Assembly: GCF_016598595.1 (NCBI RefSeq)
Contig: NZ_CP066786.1
Coordinates: 2,193,501-2,257,500, forward strand
From: Martelella lutilitoris
GTDB taxonomy: Bacteria > Pseudomonadota > Alphaproteobacteria > Rhizobiales > Rhizobiaceae
Direction of reading: 5' to 3'
DNA: 64,000 nucleotides
Shown: in pieces, positions 24,348 through 51,523 of the stretch
Position numbering within the stretch: position 1 is the stretch's first letter
Layout: each line of letters begins with the position of its first letter
Notes under the pieces: model-generated
What the model was told of the DNA's origin: nothing
What the model saw: only the letters and a program-made list of their open reading frames with translations
The model's database searches: none
Translations under genes and position numbers: made by a program

Positions 24348-24467
24348 CGACTTCAACGAAGACCTGCTGGATTTGCGTGACCAGCGCCAGGAACCGGAAC
24401 CGAACGAGAGTGCCGGTGTTAATCAGAAAGTTGCTCCCATGGGGCGACGCCGATCAAGGGGGCCGGC

Positions 24468-25136
24468 GTGGCACAGATTTTTAGCGCTTCAGCGGATGCG
24501 AAGCTTCGGCTTTTCGCCGGAGCGGTCGCGCTTGCCGTGGTGGTGGGCGGCGCGCTGTGGTGGTCGGCGGCGAGCTCCAGCTATCGCACCGACGTCGATT
24601 GGGTCAGCGAACAGCCCGTCCCCTTCAGCCATCAGCACCATGCCGGCGAACTCGGCATCGACTGTCGCTATTGCCACGACACGGTCGAAACCAGCGCGCA
24701 AGCCGGCCTGCCGCCGACCGAGACCTGCATGACCTGCCATTCGCAGATCTGGACAGATGCGGAGATGCTGGCGCCGGTGCGCAAGAGCCTCGCCACGGGA
24801 GAGCCGCTTGAGTGGAACCGCGTCGCGCGGGTTCCCGACTACGTCTATTTCGATCACTCGATCCATGTGGCCACCGGCGTGCCCTGCGAGACCTGCCACG
24901 GACGCGTCGACCAGATGCCGCTGATGAAACAGGCAAAGCCGTTCGAGATGGGCTGGTGCCTCGATTGCCATCGCGATCCCGCCCCCGAACTGCGCCCCCC
25001 GAGCGAAGTCACCCGCATGGACTGGTCGAGCCTTGATGACGATCTCGCGGCGCATCGCGATTACGGCGCGCTCGTCGTCGAGGCGCGCGGCATCGAGCCG
25101 GACCGTCTCGACGACTGCAATGTCTGTCACCGATGA
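24468..25136 (+). CDS. actA: Alternative complex III subunit A: pentaheme cytochrome c
   Basis: A 222-residue cytochrome with one N-terminal membrane anchor (LFAGAVALAVVVGGALWW, residues 15-32) and five CxxCH haem sites: CRYCH, CMTCH, CETCH, CLDCH and, at the very C-terminus, CNVCH. This is the pattern of ActA in alternative complex III, a quinol:electron-acceptor oxidoreductase unrelated to the bc1 complex. It starts at GTG 24468 and leads the act-cox operon; actB begins 10 bases after its stop. It should face the periplasm and pass electrons to ActE or directly to the oxidase. Confidence 0.92.
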   Translation: MAQIFSASADAKLRLFAGAVALAVVVGGALWWSAASSSYRTDVDWVSEQPVPFSHQHHAGELGIDCRYCHDTVETSAQAGLPPTETCMTCHSQIWTDAEMLAPVRKSLATGEPLEWNRVARVPDYVYFDHSIHVATGVPCETCHGRVDQMPLMKQAKPFEMGWCLDCHRDPAPELRPPSEVTRMDWSSLDDDLAAHRDYGALVVEARGIEPDRLDDCNVCHR

Positions 25137-25146
25137 AGGAGGGCAC

Positions 25147-28034
<2,888 letters not shown>

Positions 28035-28035
<1 letters not shown>

Positions 28036-29363
28036 TGGCGGAGGCAAGACCACTTTCTGCCGAACGGATCGACGCCGTCACCGATCTGCCGCTCGGTTTT
28101 CCGGCACCACGGGCGTGGGCGCTCTCGTTCGCCTTCGCCCTGCTGCTGCTCCTCTGCTTCGCCGTCGCCGTCACGGTACTCTTCTGGCGCGGCGTCGGCG
28201 TGTTCGGCAACAATATCCCGGTCGCCTGGGGCTTTCCGATCGTCAACTACATCTGGTTCCTCGGCATCGGCCATGCCGGAACGCTGATCTCCGCGCTGCT
28301 GCTCCTGACCGGCGTCGGACAGCGCAATGCACTCAACCGCTTTGCCGAGACGATGACGCTTTTCGCCGTCATCTGCGCCGGGCTCTATCCGATCCTCCAT
28401 CTCGGCCGGCCATGGCTGTTTTACTGGACGGCGCCCTATCCGAACACGATGGGCATCTGGCCGCAGTTCAAGAGCCCGCTCTCCTGGGATTTCTTTGCCG
28501 TGCTGACCTATCTCGTGGCCTCCGCCGCCTTCTGGTATGTCGGCGCGATCCCCGATTTCGCCCGTCTGCGCGACCGCGCAAAGGGCCGCCTCGGGCAGGT
28601 CTGCTACGGGCTCGCCGCCCTTGGCTGGCGCGGCTCGATGCGGCACTGGAGGCGCTGGGAGCAGGCCTATCGGCTCTGCGCCGGACTTGCCGTCACGATG
28701 GTGTTCATCATCACCGCGGCCTATTCGCTGCTGCTCGGCGGCGGCCCGATCTCCGGCTGGAACTCGTCGATCTTTCCGCCCTATTTCCTCTGCGGCGCGG
28801 TGTTTTCCGGCTTTGCCGTGGTGGCGGTGATCATGGCGGTGCTGCGGCGCGCCTTCCGGCTCGATGACATTCTGACCGATGCCCATAGCGACCTGATCGG
28901 CAAGCTCCTGCTCGCGGTCGGGCTGATGACGGCCTACGGCTACCTCGCCGATATCTTCAACGCGCTCTATTCCGGCGAACAATCGGAGCTCGAAACGCTG
29001 CATGACCGGCTTTCCGGCGCCTATGCCTGGAGCTTCTGGGGCGCGGTCATCAGCAATTTCGTGCCGTTGCAACTGCTCTGGCTGCGGCGCGTGCGGCGAA
29101 ACAGCCTGCTGCTTGCCGCCATCGGCGTTTCGGTCGCCGCCGGCATGTGGATGGAGCGCTACATGCTGATCGTTACCGGGCTTTACCGCGATCATCTCGT
29201 CTCCTCCTGGGGCACGTTTCAGGCAAGCCTCTGGGACTGGGCGCTGTTTGCCGGCATGATCGGCGTCTTCCTGGCGCCGTTCCTGCTGTTCGTCCGCCTG
29301 CTGCCGATCGTCTCCGGCTTCGAGCTGAAAAAGGCGTCAGAGGAGGCCCGCCATGCCCGCTGA
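28035..29363 (+). CDS. actC: Alternative complex III subunit C: NrfD-like quinol-binding membrane protein
   Basis: A 442-residue protein with about ten membrane helices of the NrfD/PsrC family, which binds quinol at the membrane face. Conserved blocks include the N-terminal region before the helices (TDLPLGFPAPRAW) and NYIWFLGIGHAGTLISALL near residues 70-90, HLGRPWLFYW near 121 and WMERYMLIV near 370. The ATG at 28035 overlaps the actB stop; an alternative GTG lies 3 bases earlier. It is followed by actD with an 11-base overlap. It works with ActF as the membrane core. Confidence 0.93.
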
Positions 29364-29907
29364 CCGCTCCGAGACGCATTATCACGCCGCAGCCGCCGGC
29401 TTCGCCGGGCCGGAAGGTCTGGCAAGCCATCTCGCAACATTGCGGCAGCGCGGCTATAGCAAGCTGGACGTTCTCGGCCCCTATTTCTCCGAGGAGATCG
29501 CCGACGCGCTCGACGCCGGCGATCATCGCGTTGCCTGGATCACGCTTGCCGGCGGGCTTTTCGGCGCGTTTGCCGGGCTCGGCGTGCAGCTTTACGCCAA
29601 TTACGCCTATCCGCTGAATATCGGCGGGCGGCCCGTATTCGCCTGGCAGCCGTTGCCGATCATCACGCTCGAAGTCGCGGTGATGTCTGCCATCGTCTTC
29701 GCGGTGATCGGCACGCTTCTGTCCTGCCGGCTGCCGAAGCTGCATCACCCAGATTTCGAGATCCCGGATTTTTCCGCCGGCGACCGCTTCTACATCCTCG
29801 TCCACGCCACCGACGAGCACTTCGACACCGCGCGAACCCCGGATGACCTGAAGAACCTCGGCGCAGAAACCGTCGCACTGGTGCCGCTGCCGGAGGCGCC
29901 GTCATGA
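29353..29907 (+). CDS. actD: Alternative complex III subunit D (DUF3341)
   Basis: A 184-residue protein with two membrane helices in the middle (LAGGLFGAFAGLGVQLYANY near 62-82 and LEVAVMSAIVFAVIGTLL near 100-120) flanked by soluble parts. The DUF3341 segment LDVLGPYFSEEIADAL near residues 36-51 and the closing region FYILVHATDEHFD near 143-155 are characteristic of ActD. It overlaps actC by 11 bases and actE by 4 bases, so the subunits are made together. Confidence 0.9.
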   Translation: MPADRSETHYHAAAAGFAGPEGLASHLATLRQRGYSKLDVLGPYFSEEIADALDAGDHRVAWITLAGGLFGAFAGLGVQLYANYAYPLNIGGRPVFAWQPLPIITLEVAVMSAIVFAVIGTLLSCRLPKLHHPDFEIPDFSAGDRFYILVHATDEHFDTARTPDDLKNLGAETVALVPLPEAPS

Positions 29908-30440
29908 CCCTGCAGCCCTTGCCCCTACTCGCCTGTCTTCTCATCCTTGCCGCCTGTGACGGCATGGACCACCAGCCGCGCTATGACGATTATGAGGAAA
30001 GCTCACTGTTTCCCGATGGCAAGGCGCTCCAGCATCCGCCGGAGGGCACGGTCTCGCGCAGCGCCCCGGCCGAGATCGCCGCGCGTCAGACCCGCCCGCC
30101 GATGGACCGCGCGCTGCTGGAGCGGGGGCAGGAGCGTTACGCGATCTTCTGCGTGCCGTGTCATGATCCCGCCGGCTACGGCAATGGCCGCATCCCCTCG
30201 CGCGGCTTTCCCGCCCCGCCGAGCTTCCATTCCGAGCGTCTGCGCAACGTCGATCCGCGCCATATCGTCGACGTCATCACCGATGGCTATGGCGTGATGT
30301 ATTCCTATGCCGGCCGCGTTCCGCCACGCGACCGCTGGGCGATCGCGGCCTATGTCAAGGCGCTGCAGCTCAGCCAGGACGCGCCGGAGCGGCTGCTATC
30401 GGAGGAAGACCGGCAAAAGCTTGCGGAGCCGCGGCCATGA
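29904..30440 (+). CDS. actE: Alternative complex III subunit E: monohaem cytochrome c lipoprotein
   Basis: A 178-residue protein with a lipoprotein signal (LLACLLILAACDGMD, lipobox Cys near residue 15), a single haem site CVPCHD near residues 80-85, and a Met ligand candidate in the segment YGVMYSYAGRVPPRDRW. It corresponds to ActE, which delivers electrons out of the complex, here probably straight into the caa3 oxidase encoded downstream. It starts within the actD stop (ATGA-type overlap). Confidence 0.92.
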   Translation: MTLQPLPLLACLLILAACDGMDHQPRYDDYEESSLFPDGKALQHPPEGTVSRSAPAEIAARQTRPPMDRALLERGQERYAIFCVPCHDPAGYGNGRIPSRGFPAPPSFHSERLRNVDPRHIVDVITDGYGVMYSYAGRVPPRDRWAIAAYVKALQLSQDAPERLLSEEDRQKLAEPRP

Positions 30441-31417
30441 CCCTTCGACCGACCGTCCCGTTGATCCGCCTGGTTGTCGGCCTGCTGCTGTTGGCGGTCG
30501 CCGGACTGCTGATCGTCGACCGGCCGGAACCGGGCCTCGCCGGCCTGCTCGCGGCCAGCGTTTTCGCGAGCGCCATCCCGATCGGCGCTGCCTTCCTGCT
30601 GCTCGTCATGGCGCTTACCGGCGGACGCTGGCAGCATGAACTCGCCGGGGCGACGGCGGGTCTCGTCCGGCTTGCGCCGATCTTCGTGGCCTTTCTGCCG
30701 CTGCTTCTGCTCTCGCCGACACTTTACGGCTGGCAGGGGATGGAGCGTGACACCACCTTCCGTGCTCTGTTTCTCAACGAGTGGTCCTACGCGCTTGTAA
30801 CGATCGGCTTCCTGCTGGCATTGCTGCTCGCGCCATGGTGCGCGGCGCGCTCCCGCGCCACAGCGGCCGTGGCCCTCATCCTGTTCGTCATCCTGCAGGG
30901 GCTGGCGGCAAGCCTGTGGCTGATGCCGCTTGCGCCGGGCTATTTTTCCTCCGGCCTCGCGCTCTATGTGCTGTCGCTCCAGGTCGGTATCGCATTCTGC
31001 CTGCTCGTGCTTTCAGCCCCTGCATCGCGCCTGCCGCTCTCCGGCACGCTGCTGCTCGTCGCCGTGCTGTTCTGGCTCTATTTCGCCTACATCCAGTATT
31101 TCGTGTCCTGGAACGTCAATTCCGCCGCCGGGCTCGAATGGTTCGCGCCGCGCAGCGCGGGGCTCTGGCGCTATGTCGAATACCTGCTGGCGGCAAGCGG
31201 CGCGTTGCCTGCAGCGCTCCTGCTCTTCCCCCCGATCCGCCAGTCGCGACGCTGGACGGTGGCGCTCGCCGCCATCCTCCTCGGCGGCAAGGCGATCGAA
31301 TGCCTCTGGCTTGCGCTTCCCGGCCGCGGCGGCCTTGCCGTGGCACTCCTTTCCGGCGCGGGCCTGATGCTCGCCGCAAGCGCCGGGTTTCGCCCGCCAC
31401 GGGAGGCCCGGTCATGA
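30437..31417 (+). CDS. actF: Alternative complex III subunit F: polytopic membrane protein
   Basis: A 326-residue hydrophobic protein with about ten membrane segments. It is placed as ActF (second quinone-binding membrane subunit) because of its position after actE and general topology; it is shorter than typical ActF of Rhodothermus (about 400 residues) and I see few unmistakable motifs (NEWSYALVTIGFLLALL near 114; YFAYIQYFVSWNVNS near 214-228). ATG overlaps the actE stop by 4 bases and its own stop overlaps the next start by 4. Confidence 0.82.
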   Translation: MTLRPTVPLIRLVVGLLLLAVAGLLIVDRPEPGLAGLLAASVFASAIPIGAAFLLLVMALTGGRWQHELAGATAGLVRLAPIFVAFLPLLLLSPTLYGWQGMERDTTFRALFLNEWSYALVTIGFLLALLLAPWCAARSRATAAVALILFVILQGLAASLWLMPLAPGYFSSGLALYVLSLQVGIAFCLLVLSAPASRLPLSGTLLLVAVLFWLYFAYIQYFVSWNVNSAAGLEWFAPRSAGLWRYVEYLLAASGALPAALLLFPPIRQSRRWTVALAAILLGGKAIECLWLALPGRGGLAVALLSGAGLMLAASAGFRPPREARS

Positions 31418-31782
31418 ACGAGAACAATAAAGGCGCCAAGTATGAACAGCGCGACGTCTCCGTCCGCATGGTCCTTTATGCCGGCGCCCTCCTCGTGGTC
31501 TTCGTGGCCGTGTCGCTGGCCTTCGTCGCTTTCCTCACCGGCCTTTTCAGCGTGCCGGATCGCGAACCGACGCCCGTCCGGACCGCCGAAAGGCCCGTCG
31601 CCGGCCCACGGCTGGAAGTCTATCCGAAGGCCGATCTTGACGCGCTGAACGCAAGCAACCGACGCCTTGTCGAAACCTACGGCCGCAGCGAGGACGGCCG
31701 CATCCGCATTCCCGCCGCTCGCGCCATCGACATCCTCGCCGACCGCGGCTGGCCGAACGATACCAATGGAGATGGCCGATGA
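31414..31782 (+). CDS. Small single-span membrane protein of the ACIII cluster, function unknown
   Basis: A 122-residue protein with an N-terminal cytoplasmic tail, one membrane helix (MVLYAGALLVVFVAVSLAFVAFLTGLF near residues 19-45) and a periplasmic part ending in ESxR-like RLVETYGRSEDGRIRIPAARAIDILADRGWP. It sits between actF and the sco gene with 4-base overlaps on both sides, so it belongs to the operon. I recognise no family. It might be an assembly factor or small subunit. The open frame seen further upstream is out-of-frame reading of actF. Confidence 0.85.
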   Translation: MNENNKGAKYEQRDVSVRMVLYAGALLVVFVAVSLAFVAFLTGLFSVPDREPTPVRTAERPVAGPRLEVYPKADLDALNASNRRLVETYGRSEDGRIRIPAARAIDILADRGWPNDTNGDGR

Positions 31783-32585
31783 CGAAGCTCCCGTTCCTGG
31801 CATTGCTCCTCGCGCTTCTCGCCGTTCCAGCACTCGCCGCCCGCGACGCCAATTTCGACCCGTTCGGGCTTGCGGGCATTGACGAGCGGCCGGACGCCGA
31901 GATCCCCCTCGATCTGCCCTTTCGGAACGCCGATGGCGAGACGGTGACGCTCGCCGAATTTGCTGACGGAAAGCCGATCGTGCTGGTCCCGGTTCTGCAC
32001 GACTGCCCGAACATCTGCGGGGTGACGCTTTCGGGCGTCATGCAGGCAATCCGGGCGCAGGAATTTGAGCCGGGCGAGGATTTCACCATGATCGCCTTCG
32101 GCATTGATCCGGCCGAAGGGCCGGAGGTTGCCCGTGCCGACCTCGCAGTGCTGCAAAAATCCTTCCCGGACATCGACATGAGCGGCATTCACGCGACGAC
32201 CGGCACGAAGGAAAACATCCGCGCGGTGACCGACGCACTCGGCTATCGCTATGCCTATGACGAGCGCATCAGCCAGTACGCCCATGTCGCCGCCACCGCC
32301 TTCCTGACCCGCGACGGCCATTTGAGCCGCTGGATCTATGGCCTGACGCCGCAGCCGACTGACATGAAGCTGGCGCTGACGGAGGCCGGCGAAGGCAGGA
32401 TCGGCGACTGGGGCGACCAGATCCTGCTGCTCTGCTACCACTATGACCCGGTCACCGGCCGCTATGGCTCGCTGGTGCAATCCATGCTGAGGATCGGCGG
32501 CGGGTTGACGGCGCTTGCCGGCGGCGGGCTGATCGCGGTGGCGCTTATGCGCGAACGCCGGAAGCGGAAGGAGGCGGCGGAATGA
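31779..32585 (+). CDS. SCO1/SenC family copper chaperone
   Basis: A 268-residue protein with an N-terminal signal (FLALLLALLAVPALA, residues 4-18), a thioredoxin-fold domain with the copper-binding CxxxC motif (VLHDCPNICGVTLSG near residues 73-87) and a C-terminal membrane helix (GGGLTALAGGGLIAVALM), which anchors it to the inner membrane. Sco proteins deliver copper to the CuA centre of subunit II, encoded immediately downstream with a 4-base overlap. The C-terminal rather than N-terminal anchor is a common variant in this cluster type. Confidence 0.92.
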   Translation: MTKLPFLALLLALLAVPALAARDANFDPFGLAGIDERPDAEIPLDLPFRNADGETVTLAEFADGKPIVLVPVLHDCPNICGVTLSGVMQAIRAQEFEPGEDFTMIAFGIDPAEGPEVARADLAVLQKSFPDIDMSGIHATTGTKENIRAVTDALGYRYAYDERISQYAHVAATAFLTRDGHLSRWIYGLTPQPTDMKLALTEAGEGRIGDWGDQILLLCYHYDPVTGRYGSLVQSMLRIGGGLTALAGGGLIAVALMRERRKRKEAAE

Positions 32586-33526
32586 GCGATTTCATCGCGC
32601 TCTGGCCAGAATCTGCCTCCGCCTATAGCGGCCGGATCGACCTTTTGATGTGGGTGTTCACCGCACTGGTCGTGGCGCTTTCGGCGCCGGTCTTCATCCT
32701 GATCGCCTATTATGCCTGGAAATACCGCGCCGGCCGCAAGGCGGACCGCAGCGACCGGGTCAACCGCAACACCCTGATCGAGATTTCCTGGGCGCTGATC
32801 CCCTTCATCCTGATCGTGGCGCTGTTCGTCTGGTCGACACGGATGTTCTTCACCGTCCATCAGCCGCCGCCGGATGCGATGGAGATCAACGTCGTCGCCA
32901 AACAGTGGATGTGGAAATTCGAGCATGCCGGCGGCCAGCGCGAGATCGACGAACTGCATGTGCCGGTCGGCGAGCCCGTCAGACTATCGATGGCCTCGCA
33001 GGATGTGATCCACAGCCTCTATATTCCGGCGCTCAGGCTGAAGCAGGATGTGGTTCCCGGCCGCTATACCTCGCTCTGGTTCGAGGCCGACAAGCCCGGC
33101 ATCTATGCACTCGCCTGCGCGGAATTCTGCGGGGCCGACCATTCGGAAATGACCGGCCGTTTCATCGTCATGGAAAAACCCGCCTTCGCCGCCTGGCTGG
33201 AGCAGTCCGGCACCGATGTTTCGCTGGCGGCGGAGGGTGAAAAACTCTTCCGCAGCAATGGCTGCAGCGGTTGCCACGGGCCCGCCGCCACCGTGAAAGC
33301 GCCCGATCTCGAAGGGCTTTACGGCAGCCCGGTTCCGCTTGCCGACGGCAGCATGGTGACGGCCGATGACCAGTATATCCGCGACAGCATCCTGCTGCCG
33401 CAGTCCGAGATCGCCGCCGGCTATCCGCCGATCATGCCGACATTCAAGAACGTGCTCAGCGAGGACGAGGTCATGAAGCTCGTCGCCTATATCAAGTCGC
33501 TCGCCACGACGGAGGACACGCCGTGA
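32582..33526 (+). CDS. coxB: Cytochrome c oxidase subunit II with fused cytochrome c (caa3 type)
   Basis: A 314-residue subunit II. Two membrane helices at the N-terminus are followed by the CuA domain, with the ligand motif [12 protein letters not shown] near residues 179-190 and an upstream His near VIHSLYIP. The C-terminal cytochrome c domain carries CSGCHG near residues 224-229 and a Met candidate in [11 protein letters not shown]. The fusion makes this a caa3-type oxidase able to take electrons directly. It overlaps sco and coxA by 4 bases each. Confidence 0.95.
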
Positions 33527-35127
33527 CCGAAAACCCGCCAAGCTATCTCGATGCCGGCCATACCATCCGCTCCTGGCTGCTGACCACCGATCACAAGCGC
33601 ATCGCCGTCCTTTACCTGATTTCGGTGACCTTCTTCTTCCTGGTCGGCGGGGCAGCCGCCGGGCTGGTGCGCGCCGACCTTCTGACGCCCGAAGGCGATC
33701 TGCTGACCAATGAGGGCTATAACCGCGCCTTCACGCTGCACGGCGTCATCATGGTCTGGTTCTTCCTGATCCCGTCCATCCCCAATGTCTTCGGCAATTT
33801 CCTGATCCCGCTGATGATCGGCGCGCGCGATCTCGCCTTTCCCCGGCTGAACCTCCTGAGCTGGTACATCTATATGCTGGGCGGCCTGTTCACGCTGATC
33901 GTGCTGCTTGTCGGCGGCGTCGATACCGGCTGGACCTTCTACACGCCGCTGTCATCGATGTTCTCGAACGGCCATGTCGTGCTGGTTGCCGCCGCCGTGT
34001 TCATCGTCGGCTTCTCGTCGATCCTGACCGGCCTCAACTTCATCGTCACCATCCACAAGCTGCGCGCGCCCGGCATGGGGTGGGGGCGGATGCCGCTCTT
34101 CGTCTGGTCGCACTACGCCACGTCGATCATCCTGGTGCTGGCAACCCCGGTGCTGTCGATCACGCTGGTGCTGATTGCAGCCGAGCGGCTGTTCGGCCTC
34201 GGCATCTTCGATCCGTCACTCGGCGGCGATCCCCTGCTGTTCCAGCATCTCTTCTGGTTTTACAGCCACCCGGCGGTCTACATCATGGTGCTGCCGGCGC
34301 TCGGCGTGATCAGCGAGCTCGTAGCCGCCGCCGCCCGCAAGCCGGTCTTCGGCTACAGCTTCGTCGCCGGCTCGTCGATCGCGATCGCGATCATCGGCTT
34401 CTTCGTCTGGGGCCACCACATGTTCGTCTCCGGTCAGTCGATGTATGCAAGCGCGGTGTTTTCGTTCCTCAGCCTCGCCGTCGCCGTCCCTTCCGGTATC
34501 AAGGTCTACAACTGGACGGCGACGCTCTACAAAGGCAATATCCTGCTCGATCCGCCCTTCCTGTTCGCCATGTCCTTCATCGGGCTCTTCGTCGTCGGCG
34601 GGCTGACGGGGCTGGCACTGGCGATGCTCTCCATCGACGTGCATGTCCACGACACCTATTTCGTGGTCGCCCACTTCCACTACATCATGGTCGGCGGCAC
34701 GATCTCGGCTTATTTCGGCGCGCTGCATTTCTGGTGGCCGAAGATGTTCGGGCGGATGTACCCGCTCACCTGGGGCCGGATCACCGCAGCCACGATCTTC
34801 TTCGGCTTCAACCTGACATTTTTTCCGCAGTTCATCCTCGGCTTTCTCGGCATGCCGCGGCGCTACCACGTCTATGCACCGGAGTTCCAGACGCTGCATG
34901 TCCTCTCGTCCGCAGGCTCGACCCTGCTCGGCTTCGCCTACCTGCTGCCCTTCGTCTATCTCGGCTATTCGCTCGTCGCCAGCAAGCGCGCGAGCGCCAA
35001 TCCCTGGGGCGCGACCGGGCTCGAATGGACGGTGCCATCACCGCCGCCGAAGCACAACTTCGTCGAGATACCGACCGTCACCGGCAGGCCCTACGATTAT
35101 CCGGTCGACAAGGAGGACAGCCGATGA
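33523..35127 (+). CDS. coxA: Cytochrome c oxidase subunit I, A2-type haem-copper oxidase
   Basis: A 534-residue subunit I with twelve membrane helices. The low-spin haem ligand region is [17 protein letters not shown] (His near 72), and the active-site helix is [12 protein letters not shown] with Tyr247-Ser248-His249 and Ala251 where A1-type oxidases have Glu. The YS pair replacing the glutamate defines the A2 subclass seen in Thermus and Rhodothermus caa3. GHHMFVSG carries the CuB His pair, and [17 protein letters not shown] the haem a3 and haem a ligands. The oxidase reduces oxygen to water with proton pumping. Confidence 0.95.
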
Positions 35128-35762
35128 CCGAGGATCTGCCGCGCCTGAAGGAGCCCTACAGCACGCGCGGGCAGCAGCGCGAGGCCGACATGCTCGGCGT
35201 CTACCTGTTTCTCGCAAGCGAGATCATGCTGTTCGGCGGCCTGTTCGCCGTGATCTTCGTTGCCCATTACCTGCACCCGGAAGAATTCATCGCCGCCTCG
35301 AAGAAGATGCATGTGGCGATCGGCGCCGCTAACACGATGATCCTGCTGACATCGAGCGCACTTGTGGCGATCGCGGTGAAGGCGGCGCGCGCCGGCCAAA
35401 CGAGGCCGGTCTCGCTCTGCCTTGCGCTTGCGGCCGTGCTCGGCGCCGCCTTCCTCGGCCTCAAGGCCTATGAATACTGGAGCGAGTATCAGGAGGGCCT
35501 GCTGCCCCTGCCCGGCGCCCGAACCGATTTCACTTCGCCCGGCGAGCATCTGTTCATGAACATCTACCTGATCGCAACTTCACTCCATGCCCTGCATCTG
35601 ACGATCGGCATCGTGGTGCTGAGCCTGTTCGCATGGCTCATCCATTCCCGACGCGTGAAGCTCCCGGCAGGCGCCACGGCCACCGAGACGGCGGCCACCT
35701 ACTGGCATCTGGTCGACATCATCTGGATCTTCCTGTTTCCCGTCCTCTATCTCGCGCGGTGA
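35124..35762 (+). CDS. coxC: Cytochrome c oxidase subunit III
   Basis: A 212-residue subunit III with five predicted membrane helices, the short form typical of caa3 oxidases. Marks are [22 protein letters not shown] near residues 23-44, and [21 protein letters not shown] (near 142-162) and [18 protein letters not shown] at the C-terminus. It overlaps coxA by 4 bases. It stabilises the active site and is required for assembly. Confidence 0.93.
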
Positions 35763-35767
35763 TCGCT

Positions 35768-36040
35768 ATGCGCCAATATCTGCAGACATCCGTCATCTGG
35801 CTGTTTCTTGCCCTCCTGCTGGGCCTGACGGTGCTGGCAAGCCATGTGCTCACCGGCCCCGTCAGCCTGTTCACAGGCCTGTTCATTGCGGCGTTGAAGG
35901 CGGGACTGGTCCTCTGGTTCTTCATGGGCATGCGCCACGAGACGCCGATGATCCGCCTGTTCGGCACCGGCGCGCTGTTCTGGCTCGCAGCGCTGCTGCT
36001 GCTGACATTCGTGGATTATCTGTCGCGGGGCGCGGTGTGA
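35768..36040 (+). CDS. coxD: Cytochrome c oxidase subunit IV family protein
   Basis: A 90-residue protein with three membrane helices (VIWLFLALLLGLTVLASHV, FTGLFIAALKAGLVLWFFMGM, LFGTGALFWLAALLLLTFVDYL). The motif KAGLVLWFFMGMRHETP near 43-59 matches prokaryotic subunit IV (COX4_pro). It is the last gene of the act-sco-cox operon; the ATG at 35768 is used, and a GTG at 35759 is possible. Confidence 0.88.
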   Translation: MRQYLQTSVIWLFLALLLGLTVLASHVLTGPVSLFTGLFIAALKAGLVLWFFMGMRHETPMIRLFGTGALFWLAALLLLTFVDYLSRGAV

Positions 36041-36287: not shown

Positions 36288-39200
36288 ATGCCCACTCCAA
36301 ATTCCTTCCTGACAGTCGGTGTAAGCGCCTCGGCGCGGGACATCGGGTCCGTCGAGCGCTTGTTCCGGGGTCTGCCGCACGACCATGACATGGCGTTCGT
36401 GCTTCTGGTCCACCACGACGGAGACACCGAAGAGCTTGTCGAAACCCTGAGGAGCCTGACGTCGATGCCGGTGGTAACGGCGACGGACGGCCGGCGGCTG
36501 GAGAAGCGCAACGTCTATCTCGCCACGGAAGGCGCATCGCTTTCGATCCGTGACGGCGCCTTTTGCATGCTGACGTCCTCGGAAACATCCGCGCTTCGCC
36601 CCGCCGATGCACTGTTGAGCGCGATTGCCAGGGATAAGGGCGACCATGCCGCAGCGGTGATCCTCTCCGTCCCTGATGGGATGCTTGGCGCAAAGGCGAT
36701 CAAGGAACAAGGCGGCCTCACGCTGGCGCAGGCGAGCGATGCCTCTTCGTCAGAATCCGGTGAGTTCCGCAATACGCTCAGCGAAAGCGTGATCGACATC
36801 ACAGATGAAGCCGGGCACATGGGCCAGCGGCTCGCCGACTATGCTCGCGGGTTCGTTTTGCTTGCTGACCTGGAACGCGATGACGATCACGTTGACCGCA
36901 TCCTCGATGCCGCTCGCCTGTCGATCTGCTCGGTTCTGAAGGAGCATACCGGCCACGACTTTTCCGGCTACAAGACCAAGACCTTCCTGCGCCGGGTCCG
37001 CCGCCGCATGCAGTTGAAGAGTATCGAACGCATCGAGGACTATCTCGACCTGTTCGAGAAGGACGAGGAAGAGGTCGACGCCTTCTATCGCGACCTGCTG
37101 ATCAATGTGACAAGCTTCTTCCGCGATGCCAGAGCGTTCGAGACCCTCGCCAACGACATCCTGCCCCGCATCTTCAAGGACAAGCGGGCTGCCGACAGCG
37201 TCCGCATCTGGGTGCCCGGCTGCGCGACCGGCGAGGAGGTCTACTCGATCGCCATCCTGGTGCGGGAATATCTGAACGCGCATGAGGGGCCAAAGCCCCG
37301 CGTCCAGATCTTCGCGACAGACATCGACGAGGACGCGCTGACCGTGGCGCGGGCTGGCCGCTACCCGGACATCCTGCTGGAGGGCGTGTCCGCAGAGCGG
37401 CGGCGCCGGTTCTTCACCCGCGAAGGCACCGGCTATGTGGTCAAGAACGATATCCGCGAACTCTGCATCTTTTCCCCGCACAGCGTCATCCAGGACCCGC
37501 CCTATTCCCGCATGGAGCTTGTCTCCTGCCGCAACCTGCTGATCTATTTCGGCCCGGATCTTCAGAACCGGGTGATCCCGACCTTCCACTATGCGCTCAA
37601 GCCCACGGGCTATCTGTTCCTCGGCACATCCGAGAGCATCGGCCGCCATACCGATCTGTTCACGCCTGTCGACAAGCGCAACCGCATCTATCAGGCGAGC
37701 CCCTACGCCAACCCGACCAGCCATCTGCGCCATTTCTTCGGCGAAGGGCCTTCCGTGCCGCGCAATGCGGGCGGGCGCGGCGAAGGCCGCGGGTCGTCGG
37801 GCTTTGCGCTGACGACGAATGTCGAAAAACAGGTGCTCGAACACTTCTCGCCGCCACATGTCGTCACCGACAAGGATGGCGATATCGTCTACTATTCCGC
37901 CCGCACCGGGCAGTTTCTCGAAGCCCAGCAGGGCCTGCCCAACCGGCAATTGCTGGCGATGGCGAAATACGGTCTGCGGCTCGAGCTGAGGGCCGCCTTT
38001 GCCGAAGCGATGTCCCGCGGTGAGAGGGTGGTAAAGGAAAACATCGCATTCGAGCAGGCTGGCGAACGTCCACAACTCGTGCGCATCACCATCGACCCCC
38101 TGCGCCACGGCAAGGACGACGCCAATCCGCTTTATCTGGTGCTGTTCGAGACGACCGGCACGAGGCCCGAGCTTTCCGACCGTCAGGTGCCCTCGCCCGG
38201 CGCGGACGCAGTCGCGGGCCTTGAGCAAGAACTCCAGGAAACGCGCGAGCGCATGCACTCGACCATCGAGGAATACGAGACCGCGCTTGAGGAGCTCAAG
38301 TCCTCCTATGAAGAACTCATGTCGGTGAACGAGGAGGCGCAGTCGACGAACGAGGAGCTTGAAGCCTCCAAGGAGGAAATGCAGTCGCTCAACGAGGAAC
38401 TGGGCACCATCAACGCGGAGCTCAACAGCAAGATCGAGGAGCTCGGCCGGGTCCACAACGACCTGAAGCATCTGTTCGCCAGCACCGAAATCGCCACGAT
38501 CTTTCTCGACCGAAGTCTCGTCGTGCGCAATTTCACCCCGGCGGCGAGCGCCCACTTCAACCTCAGAAGCCATGACATCGGCCGGCCCCTCACCGAGCTC
38601 TCAAACACGCTTGACTATCCGGACCTGGCAGACGACCTCGCAACGGTTCTCGCGACGGAAACAGGGCTCGAAAAACACATCCGGCAGGATGGCGGCGCAC
38701 GGACCTTTCTGGCGCGTATCCTGCCTTACCGCACCGCCGGCGGAAAAACCGACGGCGCGGTGTTCACGCTCACCGACATCACCAATCTCAAGGAAGCGGA
38801 AGCGCATCAGAAGGTACTGATCTCCGAGCTCAATCACCGGGTCAAGAACATGCTGGCGGTGGTCTCCGCCGTGGCCGATCAGATGCTCGATTCCTCTTCC
38901 TCCGTCGAGCAATACCACAGCGCGCTCGTCGGCCGGCTCAATGCCATGTCGCGCGCCTATGTGCTCCTGTCGCGCGAACAATGGCGGCAGACTTCGATCC
39001 GGCAGATCCTGACGACCGGGCTGGAGCCCTTCAGCCTTCCCCGCATCACCCTTGACGGCCCGGAACTGAAGGTGGCACCCGAAAGCAGCCTGGCGCTCGG
39101 CATGGTGGTTCATGAACTGGCGACGAATGCCGCGAAATACGGCGCGCTCAGCACCAGCGGCGGCAAGGTGGAGGTCACCTGGCTCGTCAGCGACGGTCAT

Positions 39201-39392
39201 TTCCAGATGAACTGGCAGGAAAAATGCGAGGCTCCGATCGAGCCTCCCGAGAACCATGGCTTCGGCAGCACTCTGATCAAGGGCGAGATCTCCTATCGCC
39301 TGGGCGGAACGATCGAAACGGAATATACGCCCTCGGGGTTGACCGCCACAATCAGCGTGCCCTTCGACAAGCTGAATGCCGCCGAGGAATAG
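36288..39392 (+). CDS. CheB-CheR-PAS-HWE hybrid histidine kinase
   Basis: A 1034-residue cytoplasmic multidomain sensor. Residues 1-180: CheB methylesterase-like domain (GVSASARDIGSVERL, LLVHHDGD, PDGMLGAKAIKEQGGLTLAQ), with Ser, His and Asp positions kept but the glycines around Ser altered. About 205-470: CheR methyltransferase (FSGYKTKTFLRRVRRRM, VPGCATGEEVYSIA, SCRNLLIYF). About 510-610: PAS-like. About 640-735: coiled coil of EELxSxNEE repeats. About 735-840: PAS. 841-1034: HWE/HisKA_2 kinase with phospho-acceptor His850 in ELNHRVKN, N-box HELATNAAKYGALS and the WQE motif that defines HWE kinases. Family members couple unknown cues to response regulators; the regulator gene 290 bases downstream is its probable partner. 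Confidence 0.92.
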   Translation: MPTPNSFLTVGVSASARDIGSVERLFRGLPHDHDMAFVLLVHHDGDTEELVETLRSLTSMPVVTATDGRRLEKRNVYLATEGASLSIRDGAFCMLTSSETSALRPADALLSAIARDKGDHAAAVILSVPDGMLGAKAIKEQGGLTLAQASDASSSESGEFRNTLSESVIDITDEAGHMGQRLADYARGFVLLADLERDDDHVDRILDAARLSICSVLKEHTGHDFSGYKTKTFLRRVRRRMQLKSIERIEDYLDLFEKDEEEVDAFYRDLLINVTSFFRDARAFETLANDILPRIFKDKRAADSVRIWVPGCATGEEVYSIAILVREYLNAHEGPKPRVQIFATDIDEDALTVARAGRYPDILLEGVSAERRRRFFTREGTGYVVKNDIRELCIFSPHSVIQDPPYSRMELVSCRNLLIYFGPDLQNRVIPTFHYALKPTGYLFLGTSESIGRHTDLFTPVDKRNRIYQASPYANPTSHLRHFFGEGPSVPRNAGGRGEGRGSSGFALTTNVEKQVLEHFSPPHVVTDKDGDIVYYSARTGQFLEAQQGLPNRQLLAMAKYGLRLELRAAFAEAMSRGERVVKENIAFEQAGERPQLVRITIDPLRHGKDDANPLYLVLFETTGTRPELSDRQVPSPGADAVAGLEQELQETRERMHSTIEEYETALEELKSSYEELMSVNEEAQSTNEELEASKEEMQSLNEELGTINAELNSKIEELGRVHNDLKHLFASTEIATIFLDRSLVVRNFTPAASAHFNLRSHDIGRPLTELSNTLDYPDLADDLATVLATETGLEKHIRQDGGARTFLARILPYRTAGGKTDGAVFTLTDITNLKEAEAHQKVLISELNHRVKNMLAVVSAVADQMLDSSSSVEQYHSALVGRLNAMSRAYVLLSREQWRQTSIRQILTTGLEPFSLPRITLDGPELKVAPESSLALGMVVHELATNAAKYGALSTSGGKVEVTWLVSDGHFQMNWQEKCEAPIEPPENHGFGSTLIKGEISYRLGGTIETEYTPSGLTATISVPFDKLNAAEE

Positions 39393-39684: not shown

Positions 39685-40347
39685 ATGCAATACCAACCGG
39701 AAATGCCGGACAAGGATATCCGGGACCGCGATGACAACGCCCTTCAGGGAAACCTCGACAGGCTGCGCGGATCGCGGATCCTGATCGTGGAGGACGAATA
39801 TCTGATCGCCCGAAACCTTTCCCGCACCTTTGAAAAGATCGGCGCCCGCGTGCTGGGGCCCGTCTCGTCCATCGCGCAGGCCATCCCCCATCTCGGCAAG
39901 GCCGATGCCGCCGTCCTCGATATCAATCTCGACGGCACGCCGGTGTTCCCGCTGGCGGATATCCTGCACCAGAACCACACACCATTCGTGTTCTTTTCCG
40001 GATGCGCCGAGATTATCATCCCCGACCGGTTCCGCTTCGTCAGCACGCTGCCGAAGCCGAACGGTATCCGCGAAATCATCGCTTCCCTCGTTTCGACCTA
40101 TGATCGCCCCGAAACGGACCGCGCCAAGGAAGACGGCGAGGACATTGTCGCACTCGTGCCGAGCCTCCGGCTCGCTGCGCGTCTGCTGATCACCGATGAT
40201 GCAGCCGCCGACAGGCTGGTCGAACGGACGCTCGAGCACGCGATCACCCATGTGGAGGAAAAGCCCGCCGATGCCTCGCGCCTCGAATGGCTGCTGTCGA
40301 CGCTTGATGAGATGCGCCTGAAGGATGGCCGGAGCGTGCTGAACTAG
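39685..40347 (+). CDS. Response regulator: receiver domain plus sigma-region-2-like C-terminus
   Basis: A 220-residue protein. Receiver domain at about 29-140 with acidic pocket E36/D37, phospho-acceptor D79 (AAVLDINLDG), FFSG near 103-106 and K124. The C-terminal part (153-211) aligns without gaps to region 2 of the ECF sigma encoded at 50937-51461: both contain V-A-L-x-P-x-L-R, then A-R, then AD-x-LV, T, I and W-L, about 16 identities in 56. PhyR, the anti-anti-sigma factor of the general stress response, has a sigma-like domain followed by a receiver; here the order is reversed and region 4 is absent. It lies downstream of an HWE kinase, the class that phosphorylates PhyR. Converges with the AI-2E gene, stops overlapping. 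Confidence 0.85.
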   Translation: MQYQPEMPDKDIRDRDDNALQGNLDRLRGSRILIVEDEYLIARNLSRTFEKIGARVLGPVSSIAQAIPHLGKADAAVLDINLDGTPVFPLADILHQNHTPFVFFSGCAEIIIPDRFRFVSTLPKPNGIREIIASLVSTYDRPETDRAKEDGEDIVALVPSLRLAARLLITDDAAADRLVERTLEHAITHVEEKPADASRLEWLLSTLDEMRLKDGRSVLN

Positions 40348-44294: not shown

Positions 44295-44561
44295 ATGGCA
44301 CCCGCATTCCGTCGCTATTCGAAGGAAGCCGCGACCCGCGACACCGTTCTCCTTAGGGTCGTCCAGCGCGGCGAGCGCTCCTACGGTTTTGTCGACTCGA
44401 TCGACTTCGGCAATGAGGACACGCCCTATTATCCGACCGAGGAACTCCCCATGCCAGAAGCCATTCGCCTTGCGGAAAACCGCAACGACACCGGGGGACC
44501 GGTCATGGTGGAACTGGAAGAAGACGCCGAATGGAATCCGGAGTGGGGCAAGCTGGAATGA
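44295..44561 (+). CDS. Small acidic protein of the stress island, function unknown
   Basis: An 88-residue, strongly acidic cytoplasmic protein with no membrane segment. It opens with a basic stretch (RRYSKEAATRD) and has a beta-rich middle (TVLLRVVQRGERSYGFVDSIDFG), ending in LEEDAEWNPEWGKLE. A GAAAGGAAAGAAA ribosome site precedes ATG. It has its own EcfG-type promoter, divergent from the SDR unit. I do not recognise the family. Confidence 0.8.
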   Translation: MAPAFRRYSKEAATRDTVLLRVVQRGERSYGFVDSIDFGNEDTPYYPTEELPMPEAIRLAENRNDTGGPVMVELEEDAEWNPEWGKLE

Positions 44562-44859: not shown

Positions 44860-45036
44860 ATGGCAAAAGACAATGACAAGGACGCGGAGGTAGCACGGAG
44901 CACAGATGCATATCTGGATCGCAAGACCGCCGAGTTACTGTCTGAAATCAAACAGGAGCCAATCCCTGACCGCCTGCTGGAACTGGCCCTGAAGTTGCAG
45001 CAATCCCTGAAGGAGCGGGAAGACAAAGCCTCCTGA
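44860..45036 (+). CDS. NepR-like anti-sigma factor (58 residues)
   Basis: A very short gene. The core, from about residue 15 to 50, has the NepR pattern: a first helix (DAYLDRKTAELLSEI), then the invariant-type turn EPIPDR at residues 33-38, then a second helix (LLELALKLQQSL). In NepR the two helices around the EPxPDR turn clamp EcfG regions 2 and 4. The ATG at 44860 has a weak ribosome site, and a stop lies in frame 13 codons upstream. A bidirectional terminator follows. It stands among EcfG-type promoters, but not next to phyR or ecfG, so it is probably an accessory NepR paralogue. The identification rests on motif, length and helical pattern. Confidence 0.72.
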   Translation: MAKDNDKDAEVARSTDAYLDRKTAELLSEIKQEPIPDRLLELALKLQQSLKEREDKAS

Positions 45037-50936: not shown

Positions 50937-51461
50937 CTACCGGCTCTCGCCGAGCTCTTCCAGCAGCAATTGCCTGGCACGATTGACCCGGCTTTTGACC
51001 GTGCCCATCGCGCATCCGCAGATTTCGGCCGTGTCTTCGTAGCTCTCGCCCAGCACAAGGACCAGCACCAGCACTTCGCCATAATGCTGTGGAAGGCGCG
51101 AGATCGCATCCTGCAACTCCCGCCCCCTGACGGACCAGTCCTGCGTGGCATCGGTCTGCGGCGTAGAGGCCACGCAATCCTCCTCGCCGGGCGTCTCCCT
51201 GTTGCGGACCCTGATCTGGGTGTAAAAGGTGTTGCGCATGATGGTGAAAAGCCAGGATTTGAGACGCGTACCCGGCTTGAACTTGTCGAGATTGGCAATG
51301 CCCTTCAGCATTGTCTCCTGAACCAGATCGTCGGCATCGTTGGGATTTTTGCAGAAGGTGCGGGCAAACGCCCGCAAGGCCGGCAAGAGCGCGACGACAT
51401 CCGCGCGCTGCTGTTTCTCCATCTGCTTCGGGGTCTCCGTCTGCTTCTGGTGAAGGTACAT
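50937..51461 (-). CDS. EcfG-type (ECF15) sigma factor
   Basis: A 174-residue ECF sigma factor. Region 2 spans about 20-90 (VVALLPALRAFARTFCKNPNDADDLVQET, TRLKSWLFTIMRN) and region 4 about 115-172 (AISRLPQHYGEVLVLVLVLGESYEDTAEICGCAMGTVKSRVNRARQ). The EICGC-x-x-GT-x-KSRVNRAR ending is the signature of EcfG/RpoE2-type sigmas that direct the alphaproteobacterial general stress response. No phyR or nepR gene is next to it, so it may be a second EcfG copy. Its own upstream region has an EcfG-type promoter, suggesting autoregulation or control by the main EcfG. Confidence 0.88.
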   Translation of the reverse strand: MYLHQKQTETPKQMEKQQRADVVALLPALRAFARTFCKNPNDADDLVQETMLKGIANLDKFKPGTRLKSWLFTIMRNTFYTQIRVRNRETPGEEDCVASTPQTDATQDWSVRGRELQDAISRLPQHYGEVLVLVLVLGESYEDTAEICGCAMGTVKSRVNRARQLLLEELGESR

Positions 51462-51498: not shown

Positions 51499-51523
51499 AA
51501 CGGGACCGTGGCACAGATGTTCC
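51499..51523 (-). promoter_or_regulatory. EcfG-type promoter of the sigma gene
   Basis: Minus strand GGAAC (51523-51519), 17 bases, GTT ending at 51499; ATG 38 bases downstream. Confidence 0.7.

Follow-up and report, generated by a model that had tools for sequence, protein, structure and literature searches.

The gene at positions 39685..40347 (+) of the window, by which we mean the whole 64,000-nucleotide stretch of Martelella lutilitoris DNA that was analysed, encodes a 220-aa response regulator (coordinates including the stop codon) in which a receiver is followed by a C-terminal sigma-region-2 domain, an observation confirmed here from the open reading frame, Pfam, relatives and alignment. 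Only region 2 of a sigma factor is present, and the receiver precedes it, which reverses the order of domains in PhyR; this arrangement, proposed in an earlier sequence-only reading, is borne out by Pfam and the predicted fold and recurs in other genomes. The product of the gene, the inverted PhyR, appears to be part of a further form of the alphaproteobacterial stress switch. It is likely to act as a phosphorylation-controlled anti-anti-sigma factor, for which we infer both binding and phosphotransfer, and would free a non-canonical EcfG sigma factor from a short NepR-like protein (mini-NepR) beside the canonical PhyR-NepR-EcfG system. The interpretation offered in the sequence-only reading, that the protein could bind an anti-sigma factor when phosphorylated by the neighbouring kinase, is supported.

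Domain architecture and predicted fold

The receiver domain occupies approximately residues 31-136 (39775..40092, +) and includes E36, D37, D79, S105 and K124; in the Pfam scan, PF00072 matches residues 32-109 with an E value of 2.6e-5 and 24.8 bits, under the cut-off of 30.2. The receiver had been called complete on the strength of D79 and K124, and both residues, together with E36 and D37, are invariant across 30 aligned sequences. Furthermore, the five phosphorylation-site positions are E, D, D, S/T and K in 26/26 genome loci, and the receiver, judged by these intact phosphorylation residues, is competent. When a family profile (alignment A1, in which 28 of the 120 listed relatives are aligned with the protein of the window and with its second copy in this genome) is compared with PDB sequences, its receiver part matches SdrG (5ieb, E 2.1e-21; 2lpm, E 4.9e-20) and, more weakly, PhyR, so that the receiver resembles SdrG-type single-domain receivers more than PhyR. 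The NCBIfam models for PhyR (PRK09191; 41.7 bits, cut-off 240) and for the SdrG group (PRK13435.1-3; 45.8, cut-off 119) both stay under their cut-offs. With dN/dS values of 0.05-0.13 in four comparisons, the receiver is under purifying selection.

The sigma-region-2-like domain follows at approximately residues 153-205 (40141..40299, +). Pfam PhyR_sigma2 (PF22029) matches residues 154-202 with an E value of 2.5e-5 when the whole protein is scanned (24.6 bits, under the cut-off of 27) and with an E value of 2.8e-6 in a scan of the tail by itself (27.7 bits, over the cut-off). A gap-free alignment of the tail to the sigma factor encoded at 50937-51461 (-) scores 78, compared with a maximum of 50 for 5000 shuffled tails against the window's sigma, and contains 18 identities in 60 columns, so the earlier count of 16 in 56 was about right. 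Against the PDB, the tail part of the A1 profile matches region 2 of SigR (1h3l, E 0.0011) and the Bartonella sigma factor of the RpoE-NepR complex (5uxx, E 0.0014). The AlphaFold2 model of the tail alone is a three-helix fold (pLDDT 85.9), the third helix extending to residue 219, and its best structural matches in the PDB are region 2 of ECF sigma factors, with TMq values of 0.83-0.88 in the leading SigH and 5uxx rows; the sigma-2 topology on which the first identification of the tail depended is thus the one that structure prediction returns. The pTM of the full-length model is 0.50, and the packing of the two domains is beyond what this model gives. The tail is also under purifying selection (dN/dS of 0.00-0.14 in four comparisons), and the mean pairwise identity among 27 relatives is 0.54 for both tail and receiver.

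Motifs of the sigma-2 tail

Single residues of region 2.2 of sigma factors are assigned to polymerase contact. Region 2.2 as a whole is described as touching the beta-prime coiled coil of the polymerase (PMC4598750). In an alignment of 103 sigma-2 domains, the region 2.2 motif D-D-L-[VL]-Q is found in 36/36 EcfG rows. In the 54 inverted-PhyR rows (three duplicates, 51 distinct; L127, L139 and L141 were left out), the first D is kept in 54/54, the second in 0/54 (R in 48), and the Q has become E in 54/54; in canonical PhyR, the second D is A in 13/13 rows. The EcfG rows hardly vary in their region 2.3/2.4 motif, FTI[ML]RN; the inverted-PhyR family does not conserve it, and the window protein itself lacks both the EcfG region 2.2 motif and region 2.3/2.4. 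The core P, R, A and W of sigma-2 are present in 54/54 inverted-PhyR rows. A domain that keeps the sigma-2 core and loses the region 2.2 motif and region 2.3/2.4 is what would be expected of a mimic rather than of a sigma factor, and from these motifs we infer that the tail no longer binds polymerase.

Distribution of the family

A protein search counted 500 relatives at E <=1e-5, and the same domain order, sought in other genomes, was found: all 120 listed of these 500 carry the tail, with tail-profile scores of 67.5 bits or more, and the organisms named among the relatives listed are Martelella, Mesorhizobium, Aquibium and Agrobacterium. A scan of named genomes, from which the best 80 matches were kept and in which more exist, gave 78 loci, comprising 32 with the tail (scores of 88-169), one in which the tail is cut by the contig end (L045, counted among the 33 inverted-PhyR loci below) and 45 receiver-only loci (tail score at most 44), which serve as controls; for the A2 set, 28 of the 32 tail-bearing loci were taken together with the window and its copy. 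Among these best matches, tail carriers include Mesorhizobium, Shinella, Aquibium, Methylobrevis, a Rhizobium MAG, Actibacterium, Salipiger and Tabrizicola, and plasmid carriers are found in Roseivivax, Paracoccus (weak tail, 23.0 bits), Ensifer and Tistrella.

In a sample of the order, nine tail-profile matches of at least 66.9 bits occur in 8/249 genomes, the next match having 52 bits; this gap is narrower in a sample of the family, where tail matches occur in 22/394 genomes and members reach down to 58.8 bits. Since a cut-off of E 1e-14 was used in the family sample, divergent members were missed. The receiver lies ahead of the tail in 21 of these 22 genomes, and leaving out G451:C2:167, which has no receiver, reduces 24 matches in 22 genomes to 23 matches in 21 genomes. 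In G451, the protein at L158 143-790 (-), near a contig end, has a sigma-2-like tail (57.9 bits) and no recognisable receiver, and is possibly a decayed or stand-alone mimic. Three genomes from the order sample (G110, G136 and G180; 6-9% contaminated) were added for the linkage counts, which then cover 26 inverted-PhyR loci in 24 genomes.

The NepR-like protein and the sigma factor

Mini-NepR (44860..45036, +), the putative partner of the inverted PhyR and putative anti-sigma factor, is a 58-aa NepR-like protein with an EPIPDRLLEL core. Of the earlier proposal that a NepR-like protein is encoded at 44860, the 58-aa open reading frame stands and has conserved relatives; the Pfam NepR model (PF18557) gives 16.5 bits over 11 residues, under its cut-off of 25.7, and the putative NepR-like identity rests on synteny and profiles. 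In a single HHalign comparison, mini-NepR and canonical NepR align over 60 columns with an E value of 1.7e-5 and a probability of 55.7%. The mini-NepR profile reaches canonical NepR weakly (E of about 0.004 in three genomes of the genus and 0.057 in a fourth) and also matches the second NepR of G393 (E 0.0026); a profile of 8 NepR sequences, searched against 1055 ORFs, matched 3/6 plasmid mini-NepR ORFs at 2e-5 to 2.7e-4 and missed the other three. The conserved part of mini-NepR (dN/dS 0.13) is the PDR core and the second helix, which would fit a partner that offers sigma-2 only.

The sigma factor encoded at 50937..51461 (-), the putative target, is a non-canonical EcfG-type protein that contains ECF regions 2 and 4 (PF04542, PF08281) and is 43% identical to the canonical EcfG of the genome. 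Its gene is preceded by an EcfG-type promoter sequence, GGAAC-N16-CGTT (51499..51523, -), and a similar sequence (N17) lies at a similar distance from the second copy of the sigma gene (locus L009), in both cases about 60 bp ahead of the start. There are 4 exact promoter matches in the whole window, a number reached by 11/100 shuffles and not clearly above chance, and 2 between 39000 and 52000 (0.48 expected). In some of the islands such sequences are dense: observed and expected numbers are 16 and 0.53 at L162, 8 and 0.33 at L186, 7 and 0.48 at L184, and 4 and 0.37 at L009; L187 has 3 (0.52 expected) and the canonical locus L010 also 3, a number that one random run also reached in each case, and L188 has 0.

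In addition to these features of the window, the three genes are associated across genomes. A mini-NepR profile was seeded with the window ORF and its duplicate and run iteratively against the 22,680 ORFs found in the 78 named loci. It matched 33 ORFs, all at inverted-PhyR loci; with the profile iterated on the same ORF set as was counted, controls included, mini-NepR is present at 30/33 inverted-PhyR loci versus 0/45 receiver-only controls, the loci at which it was not found being L017, L043 and L048. In the same loci, CheB-CheR-HWE kinase genes occur at 20/33 versus 11/45, and an EcfG gene in the examined flank (up to 10 kb) at 6/33 versus 4/45. Within 28 kb, a radius picked after the distances had been seen, an EcfG-type sigma gene is found at 21/26 inverted-PhyR loci of the order and family samples (about 0.9 expected; none at the other 5), mini-NepR at 21/26 (within 2.5 kb at 14/26) and at least one of the two at 23/26. 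Because many loci come from close relatives, these counts are not independent, and the binomial figure calculated for the 28-kb count allows neither for relatedness nor for the late choice of radius. Some weak mini-NepR matches were taken on distance, with E values up to 0.058 (G465 contig C49) and of 0.014 (one of two in G064), and at L024, which has the same tail sequence as G465 C49, the iterated search matches a mini-NepR ORF at 2.9e-7. A profile search of the genomes G499 and G509 gave no credible mini-NepR.

Mini-NepR and the sigma factor are also found together more widely. Of the 394 family genomes, 69 have mini-NepR (E 1e-5) and 123 have the non-canonical sigma (E 1e-41), with 68 having both; genomes with a receiver-sigma2 protein have this sigma in 18/21 cases and mini-NepR (E 1e-5) in 16/21. 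The two genes lie within 2 kb of each other for 33/72 mini-NepR matches and within 10 kb for 50/72, and for 53/72 matches no receiver-sigma2 protein was detected in the genome; 26 of these 53 lie within 2 kb of a non-canonical EcfG gene. On account of this proximity and the 68/69 co-occurrence, mini-NepR seems to be the cognate anti-sigma factor for the non-canonical EcfG, more widespread than the receiver-sigma2 protein, and may be a general anti-sigma factor of non-canonical EcfG sigmas.

The arrangement of the genes varies. In G395 (L161), the kinase (-), receiver-sigma2 (+), sigma (+) and mini-NepR (-) genes lie within about 5.1 kb; at L159, three parts of the module lie in 1.5 kb; in Salipiger (L041), the kinase, mini-NepR and receiver-sigma2 genes are collinear; and in a fair share of the loci from Mesorhizobium, the mini-NepR ORF is directly upstream of the receiver-sigma2 gene. 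All 6/6 plasmid regions examined (of 60 and 40 places listed), five selected on account of a receiver-sigma2 protein and the sixth on account of S. meliloti RpoE5, contain a mini-NepR match, and 4/5 of those selected for the receiver-sigma2 protein also contain the sigma gene, which is absent from Tistrella L188. In G347, a receiver-only protein (L176 1470-2102, -) is encoded between a non-canonical EcfG and mini-NepR, more than 400 kb from the receiver-sigma2 gene of that genome.

The module in the M. lutilitoris genome

Directly upstream of the inverted PhyR is the gene of a histidine kinase (36288..39392, +), the putative phosphodonor; it had been described as an HWE kinase, which Pfam bears out with the architecture CheB-CheR-PAS-HWE. 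The kinases beside 20/33 of the named loci are 38-62% identical. An 88-aa protein with no Pfam match (44295..44561, +) is duplicated with the module. The genome holds two copies of the new module, in the window and at L009 (3542-8432; G000 C1, about 1.81 Mb), as well as the canonical PhyR-NepR-EcfG locus (L010), beside which lies a histidine-kinase-like ORF. At L009, the receiver-sigma2 protein is 78% identical to that of the window, the sigma gene is about 190 bp away, and both mini-NepR and a protein of the 88-aa type (L009 5592-5931) are present; of the kinase gene, just the 3' end has matching DNA there. A transposase-like ORF, of IS256 type on reading of the sequence, stands right after the L009 mini-NepR, and a 77-column stretch outside the module (window 24456-24532, L009 3376-3451) is 92% identical. 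In M. mediterranea DSM 17316, the module is plasmid-borne (pMM593) and has a full-length CheR-family kinase gene next to it.

Upstream of the kinase, the window at 25033-36040 reads as a respiratory gene cluster, and on M. mediterranea pMM593 (L184) the genes ahead of the kinase likewise include those of cytochrome c oxidase. According to annotation, neighbours at L184, L185 and L186 include ferritin-like proteins, CsbD, manganese catalase, DNA topoisomerase IB and trehalose synthesis, which suggest oxidative or desiccation stress islands.

Proposed mechanism and alternatives

In the mechanism that we favour, stress would be sensed by the neighbouring CheB-CheR-PAS-HWE kinase, which would phosphorylate D79. 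By analogy with PhyR, phosphorylation would free the C-terminal sigma-2-like domain from the receiver, and the freed domain would bind the mini-NepR encoded at 44860, as their co-inheritance suggests. Mini-NepR would otherwise keep the non-canonical EcfG (50937-51461) inactive; once free, the sigma factor would, on the promoter sequences, transcribe genes with GGAAC-N16/17-SGTT promoters, probably including its own. The linkage of the genes points to mini-NepR and the non-canonical EcfG as partners rather than to canonical NepR. PhyR shows NepR both sigma-2 and sigma-4, and sigma-2 alone may bind a NepR-type partner weakly. The binding and phosphorylation steps are modelled on published accounts of PhyR-NepR-EcfG (PMC8103513, PMC4598750, PMC8999054).

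The tail could instead mimic sigma-2 but target canonical NepR, which would make the protein an accessory input to the ordinary general stress response. In favour of this, a canonical-type NepR above the Pfam cut-off is present in 25/25 genomes searched, and canonical PhyR, NepR and EcfG are all encoded in this genome, with PhyR at 12/13 other canonical loci examined. We nevertheless think this unlikely, since the genes are linked instead to mini-NepR and the non-canonical EcfG, and since the tail profile gives 37.1-49.4 bits on 10 non-canonical EcfG sigmas compared with 29.3-36.2 on 14 canonical ones (and 8.9-13.2 on 13 PhyR proteins), with the reservation that one linked non-canonical sigma (L038) reached only 33.1 in another tail-profile search.

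Less probable still is another or an opposite action on mini-NepR, in which the protein would be, for example, a constitutive decoy or a scaffold handing mini-NepR to the sigma factor, and phosphorylation would lower sigma activity instead of raising it. Precedents come from NepR paralogues: NepR2 of S. melonis is described as binding PhyR, with no EcfG binding found, and as a negative feedback regulator (PMC6599016), and an M. extorquens paralogue likewise binds PhyR, with no EcfG binding found and a feedback role proposed (PMC4814048). The phosphorylation residues of the inverted PhyR are, however, intact at 26/26 loci and a kinase is often near, which suits a switch.

A split sigma factor, in which the phosphorylated protein would give region 2 to RNA polymerase in the manner of the two-subunit SigO-RsoA, is very improbable: the domain is related to sigma-2 and split sigma factors exist (PMC8103513), but the region 2.2 motif is replaced in 54/54 rows and FTI[ML]RN is not kept, and the idea was set aside on this table of motifs. 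Finally, we give almost no credence to the idea that the tail is a three-helix output domain of some other kind, such as ANTAR, or a vestige at the end of a single-domain receiver, and set both aside on the tail-only model, conservation and selection data. The best 80 matches do include 45 receiver-only relatives, and Rv1626, which we take to be a REC-ANTAR protein, ranks first in a Foldseek search of the full-length model. Rv1626 and EutV, however, align at an rmsd of 9-11 Å, so this match is owed to the receiver; on its own, the tail matches ECF sigma-2 structures (TMq 0.83-0.88 in the leading rows), and it is conserved as much as the receiver (0.54 each, 27 relatives). No ANTAR model is found among Pfam matches up to E 10; none is listed in the tail-only structure searches either, although those searches do not decide against ANTAR.

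Origin

In a tree of 97 sigma-2 domains, the inverted-PhyR family forms one clade with support of 100/100, and its neighbour is a non-canonical EcfG, with negligible support (10/64); the tree was built on 70 columns, and the program warned of few columns. A joint clade of PhyR and inverted PhyR is not rejected by the tree test (p-AU 0.427). Our tentative account, to which we give slightly less than even credence, is that an SdrG-type receiver took its sigma-2 domain from a non-canonical EcfG, shed the contacts with polymerase and came to serve as phospho-switch in a complete second module, so that the mimicry was built twice. With the same reserve, this second module would consist of the CheB-CheR-HWE kinase, the receiver-sigma2 protein, mini-NepR and the non-canonical EcfG, and would stand beside the canonical one on chromosomes and plasmids. 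If so, the second module copy in this genome would give three partner switches in one cell.

Comparison with known systems

The open-licence literature, which omits most subscription papers, yielded no description of the receiver-then-sigma2 order. NepR paralogues (PMC4814048, PMC6599016) and duplicate PhyR loci (PMC12148442) are already in print; the receiver-sigma2 protein and the wide association of mini-NepR with the sigma factor appear to be new. Among solved proteins, the closest relatives of the inverted PhyR receiver are the SdrG-type single-domain receivers (PRK13435 group); unlike these, which have no output domain, the inverted PhyR has a conserved sigma-2 domain after the receiver. 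Mini-NepR shares with NepR / RsiA (PF18557) the layout helix-E-x-[VI]-P-D-R-helix and weak reciprocal profile matches, and differs from NepR in its diverged first helix and in not reaching the Pfam cut-off.

A published parallel to the mini-NepR-sigma pair is Sinorhizobium meliloti rpoE5, which encodes a second ECF15 sigma factor and is reported to be adjoined by an unannotated ORF similar to RsiA1/RsiA2 (PMC6180224). In S. meliloti B399, the mini-NepR profile finds an ORF (L183 2510-2716) convergent with the matching sigma gene, and this ORF seems to be the same gene as the RsiA-like ORF beside rpoE5. Unlike inverted-PhyR loci, the RpoE5 locus has no receiver-sigma2 protein named in the available part of its account (PMC6180224), and the tail profile found no receiver-sigma2 tail in the 4.4 kb of L183. 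Rhizobium etli EcfG2 (PF00052), likewise called a non-canonical EcfG and likened here by description, not sequence, is reported to have neither a response regulator nor an anti-sigma gene in its vicinity (PMC3892343). According to the same 2013 survey, half of the completed alphaproteobacterial genomes that it covered carry extra EcfG sigma factors, the presence of which was not satisfactorily explained (PMC3892343). The module offers a testable answer for some of these extra sigma factors, in the form of a short anti-sigma factor devoted to them and, in certain lineages, a phospho-controlled antagonist of their own.

Compared with PhyR (RsiB, TcrX), the inverted PhyR has the same components, namely a receiver and a sigma mimic with an altered region 2.2, and the same company, namely a NepR-type protein, an EcfG-type sigma factor and an HWE kinase nearby. 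It differs in the reversed order, in the missing sigma-4, in a receiver that is closest to SdrG among solved proteins, and in a partner that is probably mini-NepR. If the mechanism favoured here holds, a sigma mimic can consist of region 2 alone and be joined to the opposite end of a receiver, and the minimal requirement for partner switching becomes directly testable.
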